A stretch of 64,000 nt of DNA from Peptostreptococcus russellii. GTDB lineage: Bacteria; Bacillota; Clostridia; Peptostreptococcales; Peptostreptococcaceae. Positions 11,089-52,692 of the stretch are shown here, piece by piece (the stretch's first letter is position 1; each line of letters opens with the position of its first letter). The stretch spans positions 1-64,000 of the forward strand of contig NZ_FODF01000009.1 of NCBI RefSeq assembly GCF_900110295.1. Direction: 5' to 3'. Below the pieces are notes generated by a model, which saw only the letters and a list, made by a program, of their open reading frames with translations, ran no database searches and was not told the DNA's origin. Position numbers and translations under genes: made by a program.

Positions 11089-12771
11089 ATGTCAAAAGAA
11101 AAAATAAAAGTATACATTTATACAAGAGTATCAACATCAATACAGATAGATGGATATTCTTTAGAAGCACAAAAATCAAGAATGAAAGCTTTTGCTCTAT
11201 ATAATGATTATGAAATTGTAGGAGAATATGAAGACGCAGGAAAATCAGGGAAGTCTATTGAAGGCAGAAAACAGTTTACTCGTATGATGGAGGATATAAA
11301 ATCTGGAAAGGATGGAGTATCTTTTGTTCTTGTCTTCAAATTATCAAGGTTTGCAAGAAATGCTGCTGATGTTTTATCAACACTACAAACGATGCAAGAT
11401 TTTGGAGTTAATCTTATTTGTGTTGAAGATGGAATTGACTCTTCTAAAGATGCCGGTAAATTGATGATTTCTGTTCTTTCAGCTGTTGCTGAAATAGAAA
11501 GAGAAAATATTCGTGTTCAAACAATGGAAGGTCGTATCCAAAAAGCGAGGGAAGGCAAATGGAATGGCGGATTTGCCCCATATGGATATAAACTTGTAGA
11601 TGGTAAATTAATAATTAATGAGGAAGAAGCAGTTGCAATAAGGATTATTTTTGATCAATATGTAAACACAAGTATTGGAGCAAACGGTATATCAAAATAT
11701 TTAGAAAACCATGGCATAAGAAAAATACCAAGACAAAATGGTAAAAATCCGTTATTTGATGCAGGACTAATAAGAAAAATTCTTAAAAACCCAGTATACA
11801 ATGGTAAAATAGCATTTGGAAGAAGAACATTAGAGAAAGTTCATGGAACAAGAAATGAATATAAACAGGTAGAACAAGATGATTACTTGATAGCAGAAGG
11901 TATCCATGAAGCAATAGTTTCTGATGAAATATGGCAAGCAGCACAGGTAAAATTGAAAGTACAAGCTAAAAAATATGAACATGTAAACAAAGGAAAAAAC
12001 ATGCGAACTCACCTATTGTCAGGAATCGTAAAATGTCCATTATGCGGTGCGGGAATGTTTGGGAATAAGTCAATTAAATATAAAAAAGATGGAACGAAAT
12101 ACAAAGATTTTTATTATTATGGTTGCAAACATAGGCAGATGAATAGAGGCCATAAATGCACCTTTAATAAGCAGATTAGAGAAGAGCTGTTAGATGATGC
12201 TGTATCAGAAGTGATAATAAAATTAGTGAGCAATCCAAAGTTTGCAACTATGATGCAGGAAAAAATTAACATGAAAGTTGATACATCAGCTATCGAAACT
12301 GAGATAGATAATTATCAAAAGGAATTGAGGAAAAGTCATTCAACAAAATTTAAACTCATTGAGGAAATAGATAGTTTAGATGTTGATGATAAGCATTATA
12401 AAAGAAGAAAATCTGATTTAGACGATAGACTTTATCGTATGTATGATAGAATAGAAGAGTTAGAAGGACGATTAATAGAGGCTAAAACCAAGAAAGAAAC
12501 TATAGAAACAGAAAAACTGACTGGAGATAATATATATAAAGTATTAATTTATTTTGATAAACTATATAAAGTAATGAATGATGTTGAACGCAGACAACTT
12601 ATAGAAGCTCTTATTTCAGAAATTCAAATTTATGAAGAGAAACAGGAGAATGGGCAATGGTTAAAATCCATTACTTTTAAGCTACCTATCATTGATGAAG
12701 ATCTAAGCATAAGTTTGGACAATGATGAGCAAGATGAGACTGTTGTCTTGTTGTCAAGAAAATACAAATAA
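11089..12771 (+). CDS. Large serine recombinase (element integrase)
   Basis: This is a 560-residue site-specific recombinase. The N-terminal resolvase domain (about 7-150) has the nucleophile Ser15 in 'YTRVSTSIQ', the conserved 'GYSLEAQ', 'FKLSRFARN' and 'SAVAEIERENI'. A recombinase domain follows ('GGFAPYGYKL' near residue 160 onward). A zinc ribbon carries CPLCGAGM and a later YYGCKH...KC, and a coiled coil sits at about 395-485. All catalytic-domain motifs look intact. It would cut and join attP/attB to insert or excise the element. The start at 11089 has only a weak TGAGG. The stop is followed in the same frame by a broken gene, consistent with an element border. Confidence 0.93.
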   Translation: MSKEKIKVYIYTRVSTSIQIDGYSLEAQKSRMKAFALYNDYEIVGEYEDAGKSGKSIEGRKQFTRMMEDIKSGKDGVSFVLVFKLSRFARNAADVLSTLQTMQDFGVNLICVEDGIDSSKDAGKLMISVLSAVAEIERENIRVQTMEGRIQKAREGKWNGGFAPYGYKLVDGKLIINEEEAVAIRIIFDQYVNTSIGANGISKYLENHGIRKIPRQNGKNPLFDAGLIRKILKNPVYNGKIAFGRRTLEKVHGTRNEYKQVEQDDYLIAEGIHEAIVSDEIWQAAQVKLKVQAKKYEHVNKGKNMRTHLLSGIVKCPLCGAGMFGNKSIKYKKDGTKYKDFYYYGCKHRQMNRGHKCTFNKQIREELLDDAVSEVIIKLVSNPKFATMMQEKINMKVDTSAIETEIDNYQKELRKSHSTKFKLIEEIDSLDVDDKHYKRRKSDLDDRLYRMYDRIEELEGRLIEAKTKKETIETEKLTGDNIYKVLIYFDKLYKVMNDVERRQLIEALISEIQIYEEKQENGQWLKSITFKLPIIDEDLSISLDNDEQDETVVLLSRKYK

Positions 12772-16639: not shown

Positions 16640-17158
16640 ATGAGAAAATATGAAAATAAAGAGGATTTAAAACTAGAAATAGAGAAAACTTTTAATAAAT
16701 ATATTTCTGAATTCGATGATATACCAGAAGATCTAAAGGATAAAAAAATAGATGAAGTAGATAGAAGTCCAGCAGAAAATCTTGCATATCAGGTTGGTTG
16801 GACTACTTTAATTCTGAAATGGGAAAAAGATGAAGAAGAAGGACTCGAAGTAAAAACTCCTACAGATAATTTTAAGTGGAATCAATTAGGTGAGCTGTAT
16901 CAATGCTTTAATGAAAATTATGCTCATTTATCAATAAGAGAATTAAAAAATATTTTAGAAGAAAACATCAATTCTATATATGAAATGATAGATTCTATGA
17001 GCGATGAGGAATTATTTGAGCCTCATATGAGAAAATGGGCAGATGATGCCACAAAAAAAGCTGTCTGGGAAGTTTATAAGTTTATACATATAAATACAGT
17101 TGCACCATTTTCTAGCTTTAGAACTAAAATTAGAAAGTGGAAAAAAATAGTATTGTAA
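16640..17158 (+). CDS. ClbS/DfsB-family four-helix protein
   Basis: This is a 172-residue, acidic, all-helical protein of the ClbS/DfsB (formerly DUF1706) family. Supporting stretches are the N-terminal 'NKEDLKLEIEKTFNKYISEFDDIP', then 'PAENLAYQVGWTTLILKWEKDEEEG', 'FKWNQLGELYQCF' and the C-terminal 'WEVYKFIHINTVAPFSSFRTKIRKWKK'. ClbS itself is a cyclopropane hydrolase that protects E. coli from colibactin. Most relatives have unknown roles. The gene starts 19 bases after the MerR stop behind AGGAGAA, so co-transcription with the regulator is likely. Confidence 0.82.
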   Translation: MRKYENKEDLKLEIEKTFNKYISEFDDIPEDLKDKKIDEVDRSPAENLAYQVGWTTLILKWEKDEEEGLEVKTPTDNFKWNQLGELYQCFNENYAHLSIRELKNILEENINSIYEMIDSMSDEELFEPHMRKWADDATKKAVWEVYKFIHINTVAPFSSFRTKIRKWKKIVL

Positions 17159-17551
17159 TTTCTGAAGAAGAATTAAGATAAATAATAATGTACTATTAAA
17201 TAAGTTAAAGATAAAATTTAAAATAAAATAATAATAAGCTTTTAATTTCTTATTAATAAAAAGTAAAGGTATTAAGATACTATTTTCAAGTTGGTTAAAA
17301 ATAATTTAAAAACATAATAGTATATGGACAAAAAAATAGCTATAAATTATAATATAAATTAAGGGAAATAATCAAAATTAATTAAAAAGTTACAGATCAG
17401 AAATTAAAAGTTATAATAAGACTGATTCTATTGAAAGAGTCTAAAATTTATTAATTGATAGTAAAGGAAGAACTTATAATTTTTAAATTAAAATTGTAAG
17501 TTTTTCTTTCTTGTTTAAAAGTAAATATTTACAGTAGGGGGAATAGAATTA
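17159..17551. other. AT-rich gap before the defence operon
   Basis: No gene is seen. A terminator-like hairpin is present at 17471-17505: AACTTATAATTTT paired with AAAATTGTAAGTT, then Ts. It lies 47 bases before the next gene, so the operon promoter may lie upstream with read-through, or between the hairpin and the gene. AGTAGGGGG provides the ribosome site of the next gene. Confidence 0.45.
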
Positions 17552-19840
17552 ATGAAATTTAAGATACATAAAAAATATTTTATTAGGTTAAGTGAATTCA
17601 AACAATTAAAAAGAAATCCTTTTATTGCTGGAATTTTATCAATTATTTTTGGATTCTTAGGTATACACAGGTTTTATTCAAAGAGGCTTGTAACAGGATT
17701 AATATTTTTATTTATATCTATCTATTCAATTAAGATGGACAACATTCTTATTGGTTTTTTAATATTGTTTTGTTTTTTAGAAGGCATCGTGTACTTAATA
17801 GAAGGGCTATTCTTTCTAAAAGAAAAGTTTGTAAAATATAGAATTTTGAAGGCAAATAAAAAAATAGAAAGCAAAGAAAACAGATATATTAAAGAAAAAG
17901 AGAATCAAGAAGAATCAAAAGTTATAGAAAACTCAGAAGAAAGTAATACTACGTTAGTAGAAGTAAAAGAGCCAGAAAAAGAAAATCAAGAAGAATCAGA
18001 AGTTATAGGAAAAGTAGAAGAAGAAACGATTAGAGAAGTATCGGAAATAGATCAAAGTGAAGAAGATATAGAGATAATAGACGTATCCACTTTAGAAGTT
18101 AGTCCAATAGAATACGAAAATATTGAAGTTGAGGAGAGTATTAAGAATAACTGGATAGAGAAATTAGACATACCATATGAAAGAAAAATAATGGAGATTG
18201 ATCAAATTAAATATGAAACTCTGAGATTTTACTTTAAACTTTGTGAGTTTATTGATAAAAAATTAAAAGATAAAAAAAGTTCGTTAAATGAAGAGATTGC
18301 AAGTATTGAGAGAGAAGGTGGATATTATAGTAATATTCTATATACTATTTATTGTATTTCTGAAGGCTGTGTAACAAAAAAATATAGTGGAGGATATAAT
18401 TATTATAACCCTGATTACTCTTATCAATTGCTAGAAAAACATCTTGGAAGTGAGATGCAGAAAGATGTTTTAGAAGAAGCAAATAGAATAGAAAATCATA
18501 TTTCAAGTCCAAATGAAGAAACACGAAGATACTTTGATTTAATGGATTGTGGTATAGAAAGAACTTGGTGGGATAAAGATGGAAGTATTCGAAGTTCTAG
18601 AAAATTCAATGCAGAAGAAGCTAATATATTAAATCTAACTCCTGCGAGAAATACAACGGTTTGGAATATTTATGAGATTAGAAAGAGAATAGTTTATTTA
18701 TATATAGATCTGTGGAAAACGATTTTAGATGGATTATATAAAGAGTTTATATGGCAGAGAAAGAACAAAAAAATAATAAAAAATATCATAAAACACAATA
18801 ATAGATATTATTTAACTAGTGATGAAGAAAAGATCTTATCTTCGCTTATAAGAATTGCAGAAAATTCAGTTAGAAAAATTATGCCGAATACACAACTTCT
18901 AGATGTTGATTATGATAAAAAAATTATTAGCAAATATTTACCTAAAGAAATTATCAGTGCAATAGAAGCTAAAATTTATTATTTTGAAAAAAGTATAGGA
19001 TATGCTGATAAAAAAGAAATATTAGAAGATATGATAAGTTTGAATCCAAATGATTGGAAGTTAAAAGTAGAAGAAATATTAATGTTGAGACAGGATGGGG
19101 ACATTGAAAAATTAATAGAATATAGTGAAGACGATAATTTTATAAAAATTGCTAAAAATATTATTAGGGAAAGTGAAAATGAAAAATTATTATTACTATG
19201 TTTATATGGTGTAGAAACTCATGAAAAATTAAGTCAAAAAAATAGTAAGTTATTAAATCAAATTATAAATCCGAATAATATGGATATGTATGAGGATTTA
19301 ATTGAAGCTAAAGAAACTTTATCCACAGAACTTTTAGAAAAACTGTTAGAGCTAAGAAAAGCAAAAAGAAAGAAAATAGAATTGAACATGGAGAAGGTAG
19401 AAATCTCTAAAAAGGAATTGAATAAAACGGTGGATATATTAAAAGAATATATCGGAGAAGAAAGTGAAGAAGAAAGTGAGAATATAAATAACAATAGGCT
19501 TGCTATAATTTTAGAAAACAATAAAAATACTGAAATAAACGAAACAGAAAATGAAATAGAAGAAGATGAAAAGGTGGATATAAAAGATGACGATCAAAAA
19601 GAAAATTTAAAGTATATTGATTTTCTAAAACTAATAGTTGATAAAGAAAAGGTAAGCATTAAAGAGGGAAAGGAAATAGCACTTAATAATAATGTCTTAT
19701 TGAATGTATTTATAAGTAATGTTAATGGAGAACTTTATGATTATATACAAGATCAAGCAATTCTGATAGAAGATGATTGTATAAAAATAGATGATTTTTA
19801 TGTAGATATGGTAAAGGAGTTGGTTAATAATGAAGAATAA
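17552..19840 (+). CDS. TM2 and TerB-like domain protein, first gene of a Shango-like operon
   Basis: This is a 762-residue protein. Residues about 20-95 form a TM2-type membrane module: 'AGILSIIFGFLGIHRFYSKRLVTGLIFLF' with the G-x-x-G-x-H-R-F-Y core. A Glu-rich spacer with near repeats (KENQEESKVI, KENQEESEVI) runs to about 190. A large central helical region follows that resembles TerB_N-type proteins. The C-terminal about 70 residues ('KVSIKEGKEIALNNNVLLNVFISNVNGELYD' then 'AILIEDDCIKID') fit the TerB_C domain. The end overlaps the ATPase gene by 11 bases. In Shango anti-phage systems a TerB-like protein (SngA), an ATPase and a helicase occur in this order. The TM2 fusion suggests membrane attachment. 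Confidence 0.7.
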   Translation: MKFKIHKKYFIRLSEFKQLKRNPFIAGILSIIFGFLGIHRFYSKRLVTGLIFLFISIYSIKMDNILIGFLILFCFLEGIVYLIEGLFFLKEKFVKYRILKANKKIESKENRYIKEKENQEESKVIENSEESNTTLVEVKEPEKENQEESEVIGKVEEETIREVSEIDQSEEDIEIIDVSTLEVSPIEYENIEVEESIKNNWIEKLDIPYERKIMEIDQIKYETLRFYFKLCEFIDKKLKDKKSSLNEEIASIEREGGYYSNILYTIYCISEGCVTKKYSGGYNYYNPDYSYQLLEKHLGSEMQKDVLEEANRIENHISSPNEETRRYFDLMDCGIERTWWDKDGSIRSSRKFNAEEANILNLTPARNTTVWNIYEIRKRIVYLYIDLWKTILDGLYKEFIWQRKNKKIIKNIIKHNNRYYLTSDEEKILSSLIRIAENSVRKIMPNTQLLDVDYDKKIISKYLPKEIISAIEAKIYYFEKSIGYADKKEILEDMISLNPNDWKLKVEEILMLRQDGDIEKLIEYSEDDNFIKIAKNIIRESENEKLLLLCLYGVETHEKLSQKNSKLLNQIINPNNMDMYEDLIEAKETLSTELLEKLLELRKAKRKKIELNMEKVEISKKELNKTVDILKEYIGEESEEESENINNNRLAIILENNKNTEINETENEIEEDEKVDIKDDDQKENLKYIDFLKLIVDKEKVSIKEGKEIALNNNVLLNVFISNVNGELYDYIQDQAILIEDDCIKIDDFYVDMVKELVNNEE

Positions 19841-21158
19841 GGTAAATCCAAAAGAGGCAGATAATATTATAAAAGCATTAGAAGGTGGAGTTGTTCCTAA
19901 AAAAGGAATTCAGCATCTTTTAGCTGGTAGAAGTGAGGAAGTTCAAGAAATTATAAAGATATTGGATTCTATAATTGAAGGTGAAAGTGATATAAGATTT
20001 TGGGTTGGAGACTTTGGAAGTGGTAAAAGTTTTATGCTTAGAACTATAGAATCTATAGCAATACAAAAGAATTTTGTTGTTTCTACAGTAGATTTGACTC
20101 CAACTAGAAGATTTTACTCAACAGATGGCAAAGCGAGATCCTTATATAGCGCTATAGTAGATAGCATGGTTGTGAAAACATCTCAAGATGGAAAAGCAAT
20201 TGAGACTATATTAGAAGAGTGGATTAATAAAATTATAATGAAAATATCAAAAATAAAAAAACTTCCAGTTAGTCAGTTACTAACAGCAGAAAATAAAAAA
20301 ATAGTTGAGAATGAAATATTAGATATTACTAGTTCATTTAGTTCTGTTGGTCTATCATTTGAGCTTGGTCAAGCTATTGTAAAGTATTATGAAGGTGTTG
20401 TAGAAGATAATAGAATGCTGAAACTAAAGGCACTAAGATGGATTAGAGGAGATATATCAACAAAAACAGAGGCAAAGAGAGAGCTGGGAATTGAAAAGAT
20501 TATTAGTGATGATAATTGGTATGATGCTATTAAAAATTTATCTGAATTATTTTTAGGAATAGGATATTCAGGCTTTTTAATAAACTTTGATGAAGTTGTA
20601 AATTTATACAAGTTACCATTAGCCCGTACGAGAGAAAGAAACTATGAAAGAATACTAAATATATTTAACGAGTGCAAGTCCAGTACTGCAAGAGGACTAT
20701 ATATTAACTTTGGAGTAACTAGAAAAACTATATTTGATGAAAATAGAGGAATGTCTAGTTATGGTGCTTTAAAGGGTAGATTAGGAAGCGAAGAAAGTAT
20801 GGATACAAAACTTTTAAATACAAATAGAACTGTTTTACCTTTAAAACCATTAACTGTTGAAGAAATATATACCTTATTAGAGAATTTGAATTATATTTAC
20901 AATGTCCACTACAGAAAAGATATTATTATGACACCTGAACAGATAAAAATGTATATGGAAGAGCAGTTAAACAGACCAGGAGCAAATGAATTTTTGACTC
21001 CGCGTGCAGTTACAAAGGATTATTTGGAAATTCTAGATTTAATAAGACAAAATCCAGAGGTGAATATTGAAAATATTATATATAGCAAATTTGGCAAGGA
21101 TAGTTCACCAATATTAAAAGATAAAGATAATAAAGATGATGAAATAGAGGTATTTTAA
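19830..21158 (+). CDS. BrxD/DUF2791-type P-loop ATPase, SngB-like
   Basis: This is a 442-residue ATPase. The N-terminal 'KALEGGVVPKKGIQHLLAGRSEEVQEI' and the Walker A 'WVGDFGSGKSFMLRTI' (about residues 65-80) are typical of the DUF2791 P-loop family (BrxC/BrxD relatives). A Walker B-like strand 'GFLINFDEVVNLYKL' lies near residue 253. It is encoded between the TerB-like gene (11-base overlap) and the helicase (TAATG, one-base overlap), so the three are translated together. BREX type 2 uses a relative, BrxD, but no other BREX gene is present here. Shango SngB is the better match by context. Confidence 0.75.
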   Translation: MKNKVNPKEADNIIKALEGGVVPKKGIQHLLAGRSEEVQEIIKILDSIIEGESDIRFWVGDFGSGKSFMLRTIESIAIQKNFVVSTVDLTPTRRFYSTDGKARSLYSAIVDSMVVKTSQDGKAIETILEEWINKIIMKISKIKKLPVSQLLTAENKKIVENEILDITSSFSSVGLSFELGQAIVKYYEGVVEDNRMLKLKALRWIRGDISTKTEAKRELGIEKIISDDNWYDAIKNLSELFLGIGYSGFLINFDEVVNLYKLPLARTRERNYERILNIFNECKSSTARGLYINFGVTRKTIFDENRGMSSYGALKGRLGSEESMDTKLLNTNRTVLPLKPLTVEEIYTLLENLNYIYNVHYRKDIIMTPEQIKMYMEEQLNRPGANEFLTPRAVTKDYLEILDLIRQNPEVNIENIIYSKFGKDSSPILKDKDNKDDEIEVF

Positions 21159-23263
21159 TGGAAAGTTATAATCTGCTAAGAAGAGAAATTAGACAATATG
21201 TATATGATAAGGGCTGGCCTTCTTTGAAAAAAATACAAGCGGCTTCAATAAAACATACTTACAATACAGAAAATAATTTTATACTAGCAGCCCCTACAGC
21301 TTCAGGAAAAACAGAAGCAGCATTTTTACCAGCTATTAATTCAATTGACGATTGGAATACCGGTTTAAAGATTATATATATATCACCACTAATAGCTCTT
21401 ATAAATGATCAATTTGAAAGAATAAATGAATTATGTGATTATATGGATATAACTATAACATCTTGGCATGGTGAGGCATCTAAAACAAAAAAGAAAAAAT
21501 TATTGGATAGACCAAATGGAATACTCTTGATAACACCGGAGTCTATAGAAGCAATGCTATCTTTAAGACCAGAAGAAGCTAAATTTTTGTTTAAGGGAAC
21601 AGAATGGGTAATAATAGATGAAATACATAGTTTTCAAGATAATAACAGAGGTATACAATTAAAATCTTTAATTGAGAGAATAAAAAAGTATATGGAAAAA
21701 GAAGCAAGATTTATAGGTATGTCTGCAACAATAAATAGGGAAGATTATAAAAATATTAAAAATTTTTTTGGAAGTGAAAGAAAAACAGATGTTTTGTTAG
21801 ATAGTAGTAAAAATAGTTTAAAAGTAACAAAAAGCTTTTATAGGGAAAATATTAAAAAAGAATCAAATAATGCTCTAGAAGAAATATACGACTATTCTCA
21901 GAAAGAATCGATGTTAATATTTCCAAACTCTAGATCAGAAGTTGAGAGATTATCTGTTAGTCTTTCTAGTTTAGCTAAAAAGAGAAAGTCGCACACAAAA
22001 TATTTTGCACATCACTCATCAGTTAGTAAAGATATGAGACTAAGTGCGGAAAATTTTGCTAAAAATAATAGAGGTGAATTGTTTACTATTTGCTGTACAT
22101 CTACACTGGAACTAGGAATTGATATAGGGGCTGTAGATAGCATTGTTCAGTATAATGCACCTTATTCTATAGCTAGTTTAGGTCAAAGATTAGGAAGAAG
22201 TGGTAGAGCAACTCAAAGGAATGTACTACACTTTATAGCAACCGATGAATGGTCTTTGTTGCAAGGTCTAGCTGCAATATCGCTTTATGAGGAGGGGATA
22301 ATTGATAAATTTCAAATGATTATAAAACCATATGATGTTTTAGCCCATCAAATAATATCTATTTTATTGGAAAAATCTGGAGTTCCACTAGAGGAATTAA
22401 AAAATATAAACAAAGAATTTGAAACGTGGAAAGAAATTGAGGACAAGGAACTATTAGAACTTATAGAGTATTTAGTAGAAAATAAATATATAGAAATAAT
22501 AGAAGAAGAGGCAATAACTGGTATGGCTTCAGAAGAATTATTAAGGAAAAGTGAGTTTTTTACACATTTTAATATAGATGATAATTTCTTTGTTTATAAT
22601 AGGCATACAAAGATTGGTGAAATTTCTTCAGTAAATCACTTCGAGATAGGAACTAATATTTTACTATCTGGTAAGGTATGGAAAATAAAAGATATAGAAT
22701 ATAGAGCTAAAAAAATATATGTAGACAAAGCTATGGATGGAAAAGCACCTTTATTTCCAGGTGGTAGTGTAAATACAACATATGATATTAGAAAAAGAAT
22801 GAAAGAAATATTAAAAGAAAAGTCATATTGGGAATCTTATAGTAAAAATATAAAGCTAGTTTTACTAGAACTTGCTGATGAAAGTTTTAGATATGACAAA
22901 TTTCACTGGGTAGAATGTGGCGATGGGTTAGGGTTAAGAACTTTTCAGGATACAAAAACAAATAGAACTTTAGAACTACTTTTAAATATGATGTATGATA
23001 AAGAGGCATATACACTAAAAGATAGAGAAAGTACAATTTATGGAAAAAATATAAAAAATGATATTTATGAAGTTATAGAAAAAAATCATAATGAAAAAGA
23101 TGTATTTGAATATTTAAATAAACATCCTCAAGTAGTGGAAAAGTATATATCTAGTAATAAGTATAGAGTTTTGTTACCGAATAATTTAAAAATCAAATAC
23201 ATTATAAACAATGTTCTTGATTTACAGAATGCAAAGAACTACCTAAAAGAAAACTATCAATAA
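21158..23263 (+). CDS. Lhr-like superfamily 2 helicase, SngC/BrxHI-like
   Basis: This is a 701-residue DEAD/DEAH-type helicase. Motif I is 'AAPTASGKTEAAF' (about residues 39-51), motif II 'IIDEIHSFQDN', motif III 'GMSATI', motif V 'TSTLELGIDIGAVD' and motif VI 'QRLGRSGRAT'. The C-terminal portion after residue 400 carries a winged-helix/accessory region like that of the Lhr core. All ATPase motifs are intact. It is the last gene of the three-gene operon, followed by a strong bidirectional terminator. It probably translocates on or unwinds nucleic acid during phage defence together with the ATPase. Confidence 0.8.
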   Translation: MESYNLLRREIRQYVYDKGWPSLKKIQAASIKHTYNTENNFILAAPTASGKTEAAFLPAINSIDDWNTGLKIIYISPLIALINDQFERINELCDYMDITITSWHGEASKTKKKKLLDRPNGILLITPESIEAMLSLRPEEAKFLFKGTEWVIIDEIHSFQDNNRGIQLKSLIERIKKYMEKEARFIGMSATINREDYKNIKNFFGSERKTDVLLDSSKNSLKVTKSFYRENIKKESNNALEEIYDYSQKESMLIFPNSRSEVERLSVSLSSLAKKRKSHTKYFAHHSSVSKDMRLSAENFAKNNRGELFTICCTSTLELGIDIGAVDSIVQYNAPYSIASLGQRLGRSGRATQRNVLHFIATDEWSLLQGLAAISLYEEGIIDKFQMIIKPYDVLAHQIISILLEKSGVPLEELKNINKEFETWKEIEDKELLELIEYLVENKYIEIIEEEAITGMASEELLRKSEFFTHFNIDDNFFVYNRHTKIGEISSVNHFEIGTNILLSGKVWKIKDIEYRAKKIYVDKAMDGKAPLFPGGSVNTTYDIRKRMKEILKEKSYWESYSKNIKLVLLELADESFRYDKFHWVECGDGLGLRTFQDTKTNRTLELLLNMMYDKEAYTLKDRESTIYGKNIKNDIYEVIEKNHNEKDVFEYLNKHPQVVEKYISSNKYRVLLPNNLKIKYIINNVLDLQNAKNYLKENYQ

Positions 23264-23307: not shown

Positions 23308-23352
23308 AAAAAACGATTCTTGTATTTTATTTAGATACAAGAATCGTTTTTT
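23308..23352. terminator. Bidirectional terminator between convergent genes
   Basis: Perfect 18-bp arms (23308-23325 and 23335-23352; core ACGATTCTTGTAT/ATACAAGAATCGT) carry A6 on one side and T6 on the other. It ends both the helicase operon and the minus-strand CWB2 gene. Confidence 0.92.
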
Positions 23353-51927: not shown

Positions 51928-52692
51928 ATGAAGAAGAAAAAGATATATGATTTTCATACTCATATAGATGAGTTAAATACAATAGGAAAATATTATGAAA
52001 GTAATATTGTTCCAGTTATTAATTGCCAAAATGAAGATGAATATTATGAATTTAAAGAATACTTTGAAAAATTAAAGGAGAAACTTGAATATGCAAATGA
52101 AGAATTTTATTTTAGCATAGGCATTCATCCAAATGATTCTTTGAAGTATAAGAAAGATGTTAATGATGTATACAAGGATATAGTATTAAACTCTCCTATA
52201 ATAGGGGAAATAGGAATGGATGGATGTTGGTGTGATATATCCTTTGATGTTCAGGAGGAAGTATTTAGAAAAAGTTTGGATATTGCAAAAAAATATTCAA
52301 AGCCAGTAATTCTTCATACGAAATTTATGGAAAAAAAGATTTTTGATATTATAAAAGACTATGAACTTGACTTTATAGTTCATTGGTATAGTTGTGATAA
52401 CTATATTGATGAGTTTATAGAGAAATCTTGTTATTTTACTATAGGTCCTGCGGTACTAGTTGATGAAAATGTAAGAATGCTTGTAAAAAGAGCTCCAATA
52501 GATAGATTACTTTTGGAAACAGATGGGCTAGAGGCTTTGGAATGGCTATTTAAGAAAAAGTACAGGGCTGATGATTTAAGGTCTGTTTTAGAGATAGTTT
52601 GTGAAGAAATATCTCTTCTTAAAAACATTGATATAGATAGGACATATTCTATATTACAAAAAAATTCAGAAAAATTACTTAAAATAAAGTAA
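51928..52692 (+). CDS. TatD-family metal-dependent hydrolase
   Basis: This is a 254-residue TIM-barrel hydrolase. The metal site motifs are 'YDFHTHID' (His10, His12), 'IGEIGMDG', 'VILHTKF', 'FIVHWYS' and 'LLLETDGLE'. The family usually reads ETDxP at the last site, so the Gly-Leu here is slightly unusual. It is shorter and more diverged than housekeeping TatD, closer to the QatD-like or orphan subfamily. Likely a DNase or phosphohydrolase; substrate unknown. It follows the repressor gene and ends at a terminator. Confidence 0.8.
   Translation: MKKKKIYDFHTHIDELNTIGKYYESNIVPVINCQNEDEYYEFKEYFEKLKEKLEYANEEFYFSIGIHPNDSLKYKKDVNDVYKDIVLNSPIIGEIGMDGCWCDISFDVQEEVFRKSLDIAKKYSKPVILHTKFMEKKIFDIIKDYELDFIVHWYSCDNYIDEFIEKSCYFTIGPAVLVDENVRMLVKRAPIDRLLLETDGLEALEWLFKKKYRADDLRSVLEIVCEEISLLKNIDIDRTYSILQKNSEKLLKIK

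Follow-up and report, generated by a model that had tools for sequence, protein, structure and literature searches.

Three adjacent genes of Peptostreptococcus russellii form an operon for Shango, which is already known as a phage defence; the operon belongs to a divergent branch of this system, and its SngA protein has a predicted membrane anchor, a TM2 domain. The genes lie on the forward strand of a 64,000-nucleotide (nt) stretch of DNA (contig NZ_FODF01000009.1, positions 1 to 64,000), which we refer to as the window. The first gene, sngA (17552..19840), codes for a protein of 762 amino acids in which a TM2 domain, a Glu-rich linker, an IIDVS motif and a TerB-like body are followed by a TerB_C domain. 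Next come sngB (19830..21158), which codes for a BrxC/BrxD-type ATPase of 442 amino acids, and sngC (21158..23263), which codes for a superfamily 2 (SF2) helicase of the Lhr/BrxHI type with 701 amino acids. The open reading frames (ORFs) overlap by 11 nt between sngA and sngB and by 1 nt between sngB and sngC, and their positions agree exactly with the three overlapping genes that an earlier note on this DNA had placed at 17552..23263.

The same note had proposed that these genes constitute a Shango operon, and this assignment is borne out by a PADLOC search, which matches all three proteins in the order A-B-C with E-values of 6.5e-15 (SngA), 1.1e-138 (SngB) and 2.3e-180 (SngC). The SngA match (53.7 bits) covers only the C-terminal part of the protein, residues 417-757 (profile positions 254-526 of 528), and canonical SngAs score 228-292 bits on the same profile. 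TerB_C itself (Pfam PF15615, residues 600-754, 19349..19813) scores 39.8 bits against a cut-off of 26.3, which keeps the first protein within the TerB families. TerB proper (PF05099), found in five of eight plasmid SngAs, is not among the Pfam matches of the window protein at an E-value of 0.01. Pfam also recognizes BrxC_BrxD in SngB, and DEAD and Helicase_C in SngC. The gene set by which Shango is recognized, namely a TerB-type protein, a BrxC/D-type ATPase and an SF2 helicase, is therefore present, adjacent and in order. The Walker A (GDFGSGKS, residues 60-67) and Walker B (LINFDE, residues 250-255) sequences of SngB are intact, as are helicase motifs I, II, III and VI of SngC. We conclude that the three genes are real and that the Shango operon is complete.

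Since the ATPase and the helicase are homologous to BrxD and BrxHI of the bacteriophage exclusion (BREX) systems, one could also read the locus as a BREX remnant, or as an accessory BrxD-BrxHI pair next to an unrelated upstream gene. The window proteins do match the corresponding PADLOC profiles, SngB that of BrxD with 131.5 bits and SngC that of BrxHI with 389.5 bits. However, the Shango profiles score higher for both (461 and 600 bits), SngB reaches only 133.4 bits on the NCBIfam BrxD equivalog against a cut-off of 350, and the partner protein carries TerB_C. Moreover, PglZ has no match in the genome, and sngB is its sole BrxC/D-family gene. A BREX remnant is rejected on these grounds and retains a negligible probability in our assessment, and the locus is not nearer to a complete BREX locus, which the earlier note had named as a possible outcome.

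Canonical Shango of Escherichia coli and Pseudomonas aeruginosa PA14 (PMC10250203) agrees with the window operon in gene content and gene order, as the E. coli loci compared here also show. Another paper groups SngC with BrxHI, DruE and DpdJ (PMC12278908), and DruE is characterized in a preprint as a helicase-nuclease that acts on replication intermediates (PMC13192584). A search of solved structures returned no match for SngB, and for SngA only matches with E-values of 0.025 or higher, the best being histidine kinases, which we take to have arisen by chance.

A divergent branch of Shango

SngB was used to place the operon among its relatives. Matches with an E-value of 1e-30 or lower were found in 39 of 391 genomes of the class. 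Among the 42 matches in these genomes, 21 were used as canonical representatives, one (L033) belongs to the group of the window, and three weaker ones served as the outgroup; fragments, one second copy and the remaining weak matches were left out. The window SngB is only 28-36% identical to the 21 canonical Clostridia proteins, and 65% and 49% identical to those of loci L024 and L026. Relatives in named genomes (the best 80 of 278) include Tissierella, Anaerococcus, Vagococcus and many Bacteroidota. One of these loci (L115) has no SngB match in its ORF set and five others (L047, L048, L063, L064 and L069) have no SngA assigned just upstream, which leaves 74 loci. The gene order varies in some of the five: a SngA-like ORF follows SngC in the two Ruoffia loci (L063 and L064) and lies on the opposite strand in Ligilactobacillus salitolerans (L048). 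The SngA-like ORFs of L048 and L069 were scanned with Pfam and are excluded from the 113 SngAs discussed below.

A SngB tree of 105 rows, built by a quick method and carrying long-branch warnings, resolves three supported groups, namely the canonical Clostridia (21 rows, support 97), a Bacillota group that includes the window (33 rows, support 99), and the Bacteroidota (48 rows, support 99). By these sequence comparisons, the window operon sits on a divergent Shango branch.

The SngA proteins differ between the branches as well. TerB_N was found by Pfam in all 15 canonical SngAs scanned, whereas it has no Pfam match in the window SngA. Alignment A2 combines 75 SngAs from the window and Bacteroidota groups; TerB_N does not figure among the Pfam families given for them, and 73 of the 75 carry TerB_C. 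TerB_N is to be understood as a trait of the canonical branch seen here, and not as a requirement of any published Shango definition known to us. In profile comparisons (which took 17 of 28, 21 of 48 and 32 of 37 SngAs), the window group could be aligned with canonical SngA over only the last 156 residues of the window protein, and with Bacteroidota SngA from IIDVS to near the end. Unlike canonical SngA, the window protein carries both TM2 and IIDVS. What distinguishes the window operon is thus its divergent branch, a SngA without a recognizable TerB_N, and the IIDVS motif.

The nearest relatives by SngB are those of Tissierella pigra (L044, 77% identical) and Clostridiaceae UBA4839 (L043, 80% identical). 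The T. pigra SngA likewise has a TM2 domain (42.4 bits), together with the variant IIEVS, whereas that of UBA4839 (L043:940-2829) begins inside TM2 and is missing the first helix, which may reflect either a true truncation or an assembly artefact of the metagenome-assembled genome.

Predicted membrane anchors and the IIDV[S/T] motif of SngA

The TM2 domain of the window SngA (Pfam PF05154, residues 20-57, 17609..17722) scores 29.9 bits against a gathering cut-off of 27.9, and hydropathy places transmembrane segments at residues 24-42, 49-67 and 69-87. A Glu/Lys-rich linker with 25 glutamates follows at residues 91-174 (17822..18073); within it, 81 nt are imperfectly duplicated in tandem (17893-17973 and 17974-18054, 72% identical). 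The N-terminal TM2 module and Glu-rich repeat linker that had been noted earlier are therefore both present. The conserved IIDVS motif (residues 175-179, 18074..18088) stands immediately after the linker, at the point where the alignment with Bacteroidota SngA starts.

The earlier suggestion that tethering to the membrane makes this SngA a new variant does not hold as it was stated. An N-terminal transmembrane segment, here meaning a Kyte-Doolittle window above threshold within the first 150 residues rather than the output of a trained predictor, is present in 40 of 113 SngAs, including all three E. coli proteins read (L168, L176 and L177), whose anchor is predicted to be one N-terminal helix. 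Anchored proteins occur among the canonical Clostridia (4 of 21), the Bacteroidota (18 of 48) and the window group (6 of 28). They also make up 12 of 16 plasmid, archaeal and E. coli representatives, a value that is no frequency because these loci were hand-picked from hundreds of matches. The same test detects no segment in 105 SngBs or 76 SngCs.

Nor is TM2 itself a novelty on SngA. Pfam finds it in 9 of 94 SngAs scanned (eight above the cut-off), from Bacillota, Bacteroidota and a haloarchaeon, and we therefore rejected the idea that a TM2-bearing SngA is unique to the window genome. Six are among the 75 proteins of alignment A2 (the window, T. pigra, Vagococcus silagei, an Aerococcaceae member below the cut-off, Myroides albus and an uncultured Flavobacterium), and further examples are found in a canonical Clostridia locus (L136, 64 bits), a haloarchaeal plasmid (L170, 61 bits) and Persicobacter (L182). 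A second haloarchaeal SngA (L179) has an N-terminus that by eye is nearly identical to that of L170. In the Persicobacter protein (L182:2340-4997), an SH3_3 domain precedes TM2 and TerB_C. Among the papers listed in a literature search, none was seen to describe SngA as having a TM2 domain or another membrane anchor, although such a description may exist.

When three anchor states (TM2, other and none) are mapped onto the SngB tree, at least 13 changes are needed, compared with a possible minimum of 2 and an average of 25.9 for shuffled labels; eight of the 105 rows have no anchor state. The simpler division into anchored and soluble proteins takes 10 changes, 7 of which are forced by well-supported branches. 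For TM2, whose state was set by hand and includes the truncated L043 and the below-cut-off L059, the figures are 5 and 2. These many changes indicate that different anchors have been set before the same SngA body. Anchors recur and are exchanged, tethering itself is not new to the window operon, and we consider this repeated, exchangeable anchoring of SngA a more interesting result than the single operon.

The motif that follows the linker is widespread in the window and Bacteroidota groups. Of the 75 A2 SngAs, 56 have the pattern [IV][IV][DE][VILT][ST] in their N-terminal portion, typically as DDSIIDV[ST], compared with a mean of 1.85 and a maximum of 6 in 200 shuffles. It is carried by 42 of 48 Bacteroidota and 14 of 28 window-group proteins, by none of the 21 canonical Clostridia proteins, and by one (Hymenobacter) of the 16 hand-picked ones; among the control proteins it appears in 1 of 79 SngBs and in none of 75 SngCs. 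A strict DNA version of the pattern gave 13 matches among 25 genomes, one each and all 13 inside SngA, versus a single match in the reversed control. Its position varies with the anchor: the motif lies at residues 5-43 in soluble motif-bearing SngAs and at residues 51-445 in anchored ones. Within the window group it is present in all 6 anchored SngAs versus 8 of 21 soluble ones. By its position, IIDV[S/T] delimits the anchor module.

Genomic setting

The operon was said to adjoin integrative-element and insertion sequence (IS) debris. This is confirmed in part, by a serine recombinase ORF with Resolvase, Recombinase and zinc-ribbon domains (11089-12771), located 4.8 kb upstream of the operon; no search aimed at IS remnants was made. 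A BrxC/D-family gene is present in one of nine genomes of the genus, that of the window alone, which suggests acquisition. Composition gives no support for transfer, in that the operon (22-30% G+C) is close to its surroundings (25-33%). The genes at 10-26 kb of the window have no recognizable copy upstream of the flanking exonuclease gene in four relatives of the genus, and consequently an empty site and the borders of an island could not be drawn. The flanking Crp-type gene has weak matches (20% and 27% identical) in two of the other eight genomes of the genus.

Directly upstream of the operon is a DUF1706 gene (16640-17158) whose DNA resembles that of ClbS/DfsB-type genes carried by many Enterococcus plasmids, which points to a mobile neighbourhood. 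A plasmid collection searched at the DNA level matches only small parts of the stretch compared, mostly this ClbS-type gene. Shango relatives were found on plasmids, and none by SngB in the viral contigs or phage records searched. One study also locates Shango in E. coli genomic islands (PMC11096173).

No constant fourth gene accompanies the system: this candidate was rejected after comparing 700 ORFs that flank Shango in the window and at 79 further loci. Four ORF clusters recur in at least four genera, but the neighbours of the window operon belong to none of them. One of the four is a gene upstream of Bacteroidota Shango, present in 14 loci of four genera (including L078:5599-6489 and L080:4678-5592); it may be an accessory, and the two copies scanned both have a BRCT domain. 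At L170:8736-11278 and L179:8736-11203, both haloarchaeal operons are followed by genes for a metallophosphoesterase and an SMC-type ATPase, a Mre11/Rad50-like pair by annotation. Elsewhere in the window, a TatD-like hydrolase ORF (51928-52692) matches the PADLOC QatD profile (3.9e-21) and is likely an ordinary TatD nuclease.

Two possible transcription signals flank the genes on the forward strand. A candidate promoter (TGGACA-17-TATAAT, 17325..17353) agrees with the consensus at 11 of 12 positions and is a consensus match only; it is weak evidence because the scan yielded fewer promoter-like sites than shuffled sequences (35 versus a mean of 42.2). A terminator-like hairpin 3′ of sngC (23308..23352; 20 pairs, 4 of them G-C) is likewise a consensus match only.

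A possible role at the membrane

What the sequences show is which genes are present and in what order, that the motifs of both the ATPase and the helicase are intact, that SngA has a TM2 domain, and that predicted anchors recur on SngA alone. With these features in mind, we favour, at slightly better than even confidence, a model for this complete divergent operon wherein SngA stations a SngB-SngC helicase machine at the membrane. The TM2 helices and the long charged linker would hold SngA at the inner membrane face as a fixed platform, and perhaps as a sensor, that keeps SngB and SngC at the sites of phage DNA entry or replication. Once phage DNA is encountered, the ATPase would load the helicase or drive it, and SngC would unwind or strip this DNA and thereby block infection. 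Membrane localization in the cell, the A-B-C complex, the thing sensed and this order of events are inferred, and IIDVS may have a docking role. Zorya and Kiwa are membrane-linked defences, and they resemble this arrangement in outline only, with a membrane part and DNA-acting partners; no homology is claimed. More tentatively, and with somewhat less than even confidence, we extend the proposal to the family: Shango would be membrane-stationed, with SngA as a modular receptor whose anchors (TM2, a single helix or helix pairs) are gained, lost or swapped before a fixed body, and with IIDV[S/T] docking the helicase machine in the window and Bacteroidota branches.

Two observations weigh against stationing at the membrane. 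The window TM2 domain scores only 2 bits above the Pfam cut-off, and 73 of the 113 SngAs have no N-terminal transmembrane segment, so that not all Shango systems need an anchor, barring one contributed by a partner or by the host. As for IIDV[S/T], many soluble window-group SngAs do not have it, which argues against an always essential role of the motif. The 73 SngAs without a segment, which include nearly all those of Anaerococcus and Chryseobacterium, also speak for the idea that the anchor is an accessory for tuning or localizing a cytoplasmic core, with SngB and SngC acting on phage DNA throughout the cell. We judge this rather unlikely, given that anchors arise many times independently and on SngA alone, which suggests selection.

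SngA might instead be the effector, such that its transmembrane part harms the membrane on a signal from SngB and SngC and the infected cell ceases to grow or dies (abortive infection). Other defence systems use membrane effectors, and SngA is the sole anchored subunit; nevertheless, its anchors are of unrelated kinds and frequently absent, which fits a tether better than a pore, and we regard an effector role as unlikely. Finally, the operon could be a group of housekeeping genes, domesticated for the repair of DNA or for responses to stress, rather than a defence; TerB domains have a known link to stress responses. Its restriction to one genome of the genus is, however, what is expected of an accessory, mobile trait, and its relatives are located on plasmids; a housekeeping function is accordingly very improbable.

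These findings bear on a widespread system. Among 5426 complete E. coli genomes, 479 contain SngB-like DNA (in 467 the match covers at least 80% of the query), and in a 2026 review the mechanism of Shango is listed as unknown (PMC12926258). Unrelated anchors of several kinds recur on the SngA of other Shango operons, and the membrane may therefore be the place where the system works. The recurrent anchoring of SngA, that of the E. coli type included, opens a simple way to begin testing the site of Shango action, and the conserved IIDV[S/T] peptide offers a second test, of what SngA binds.

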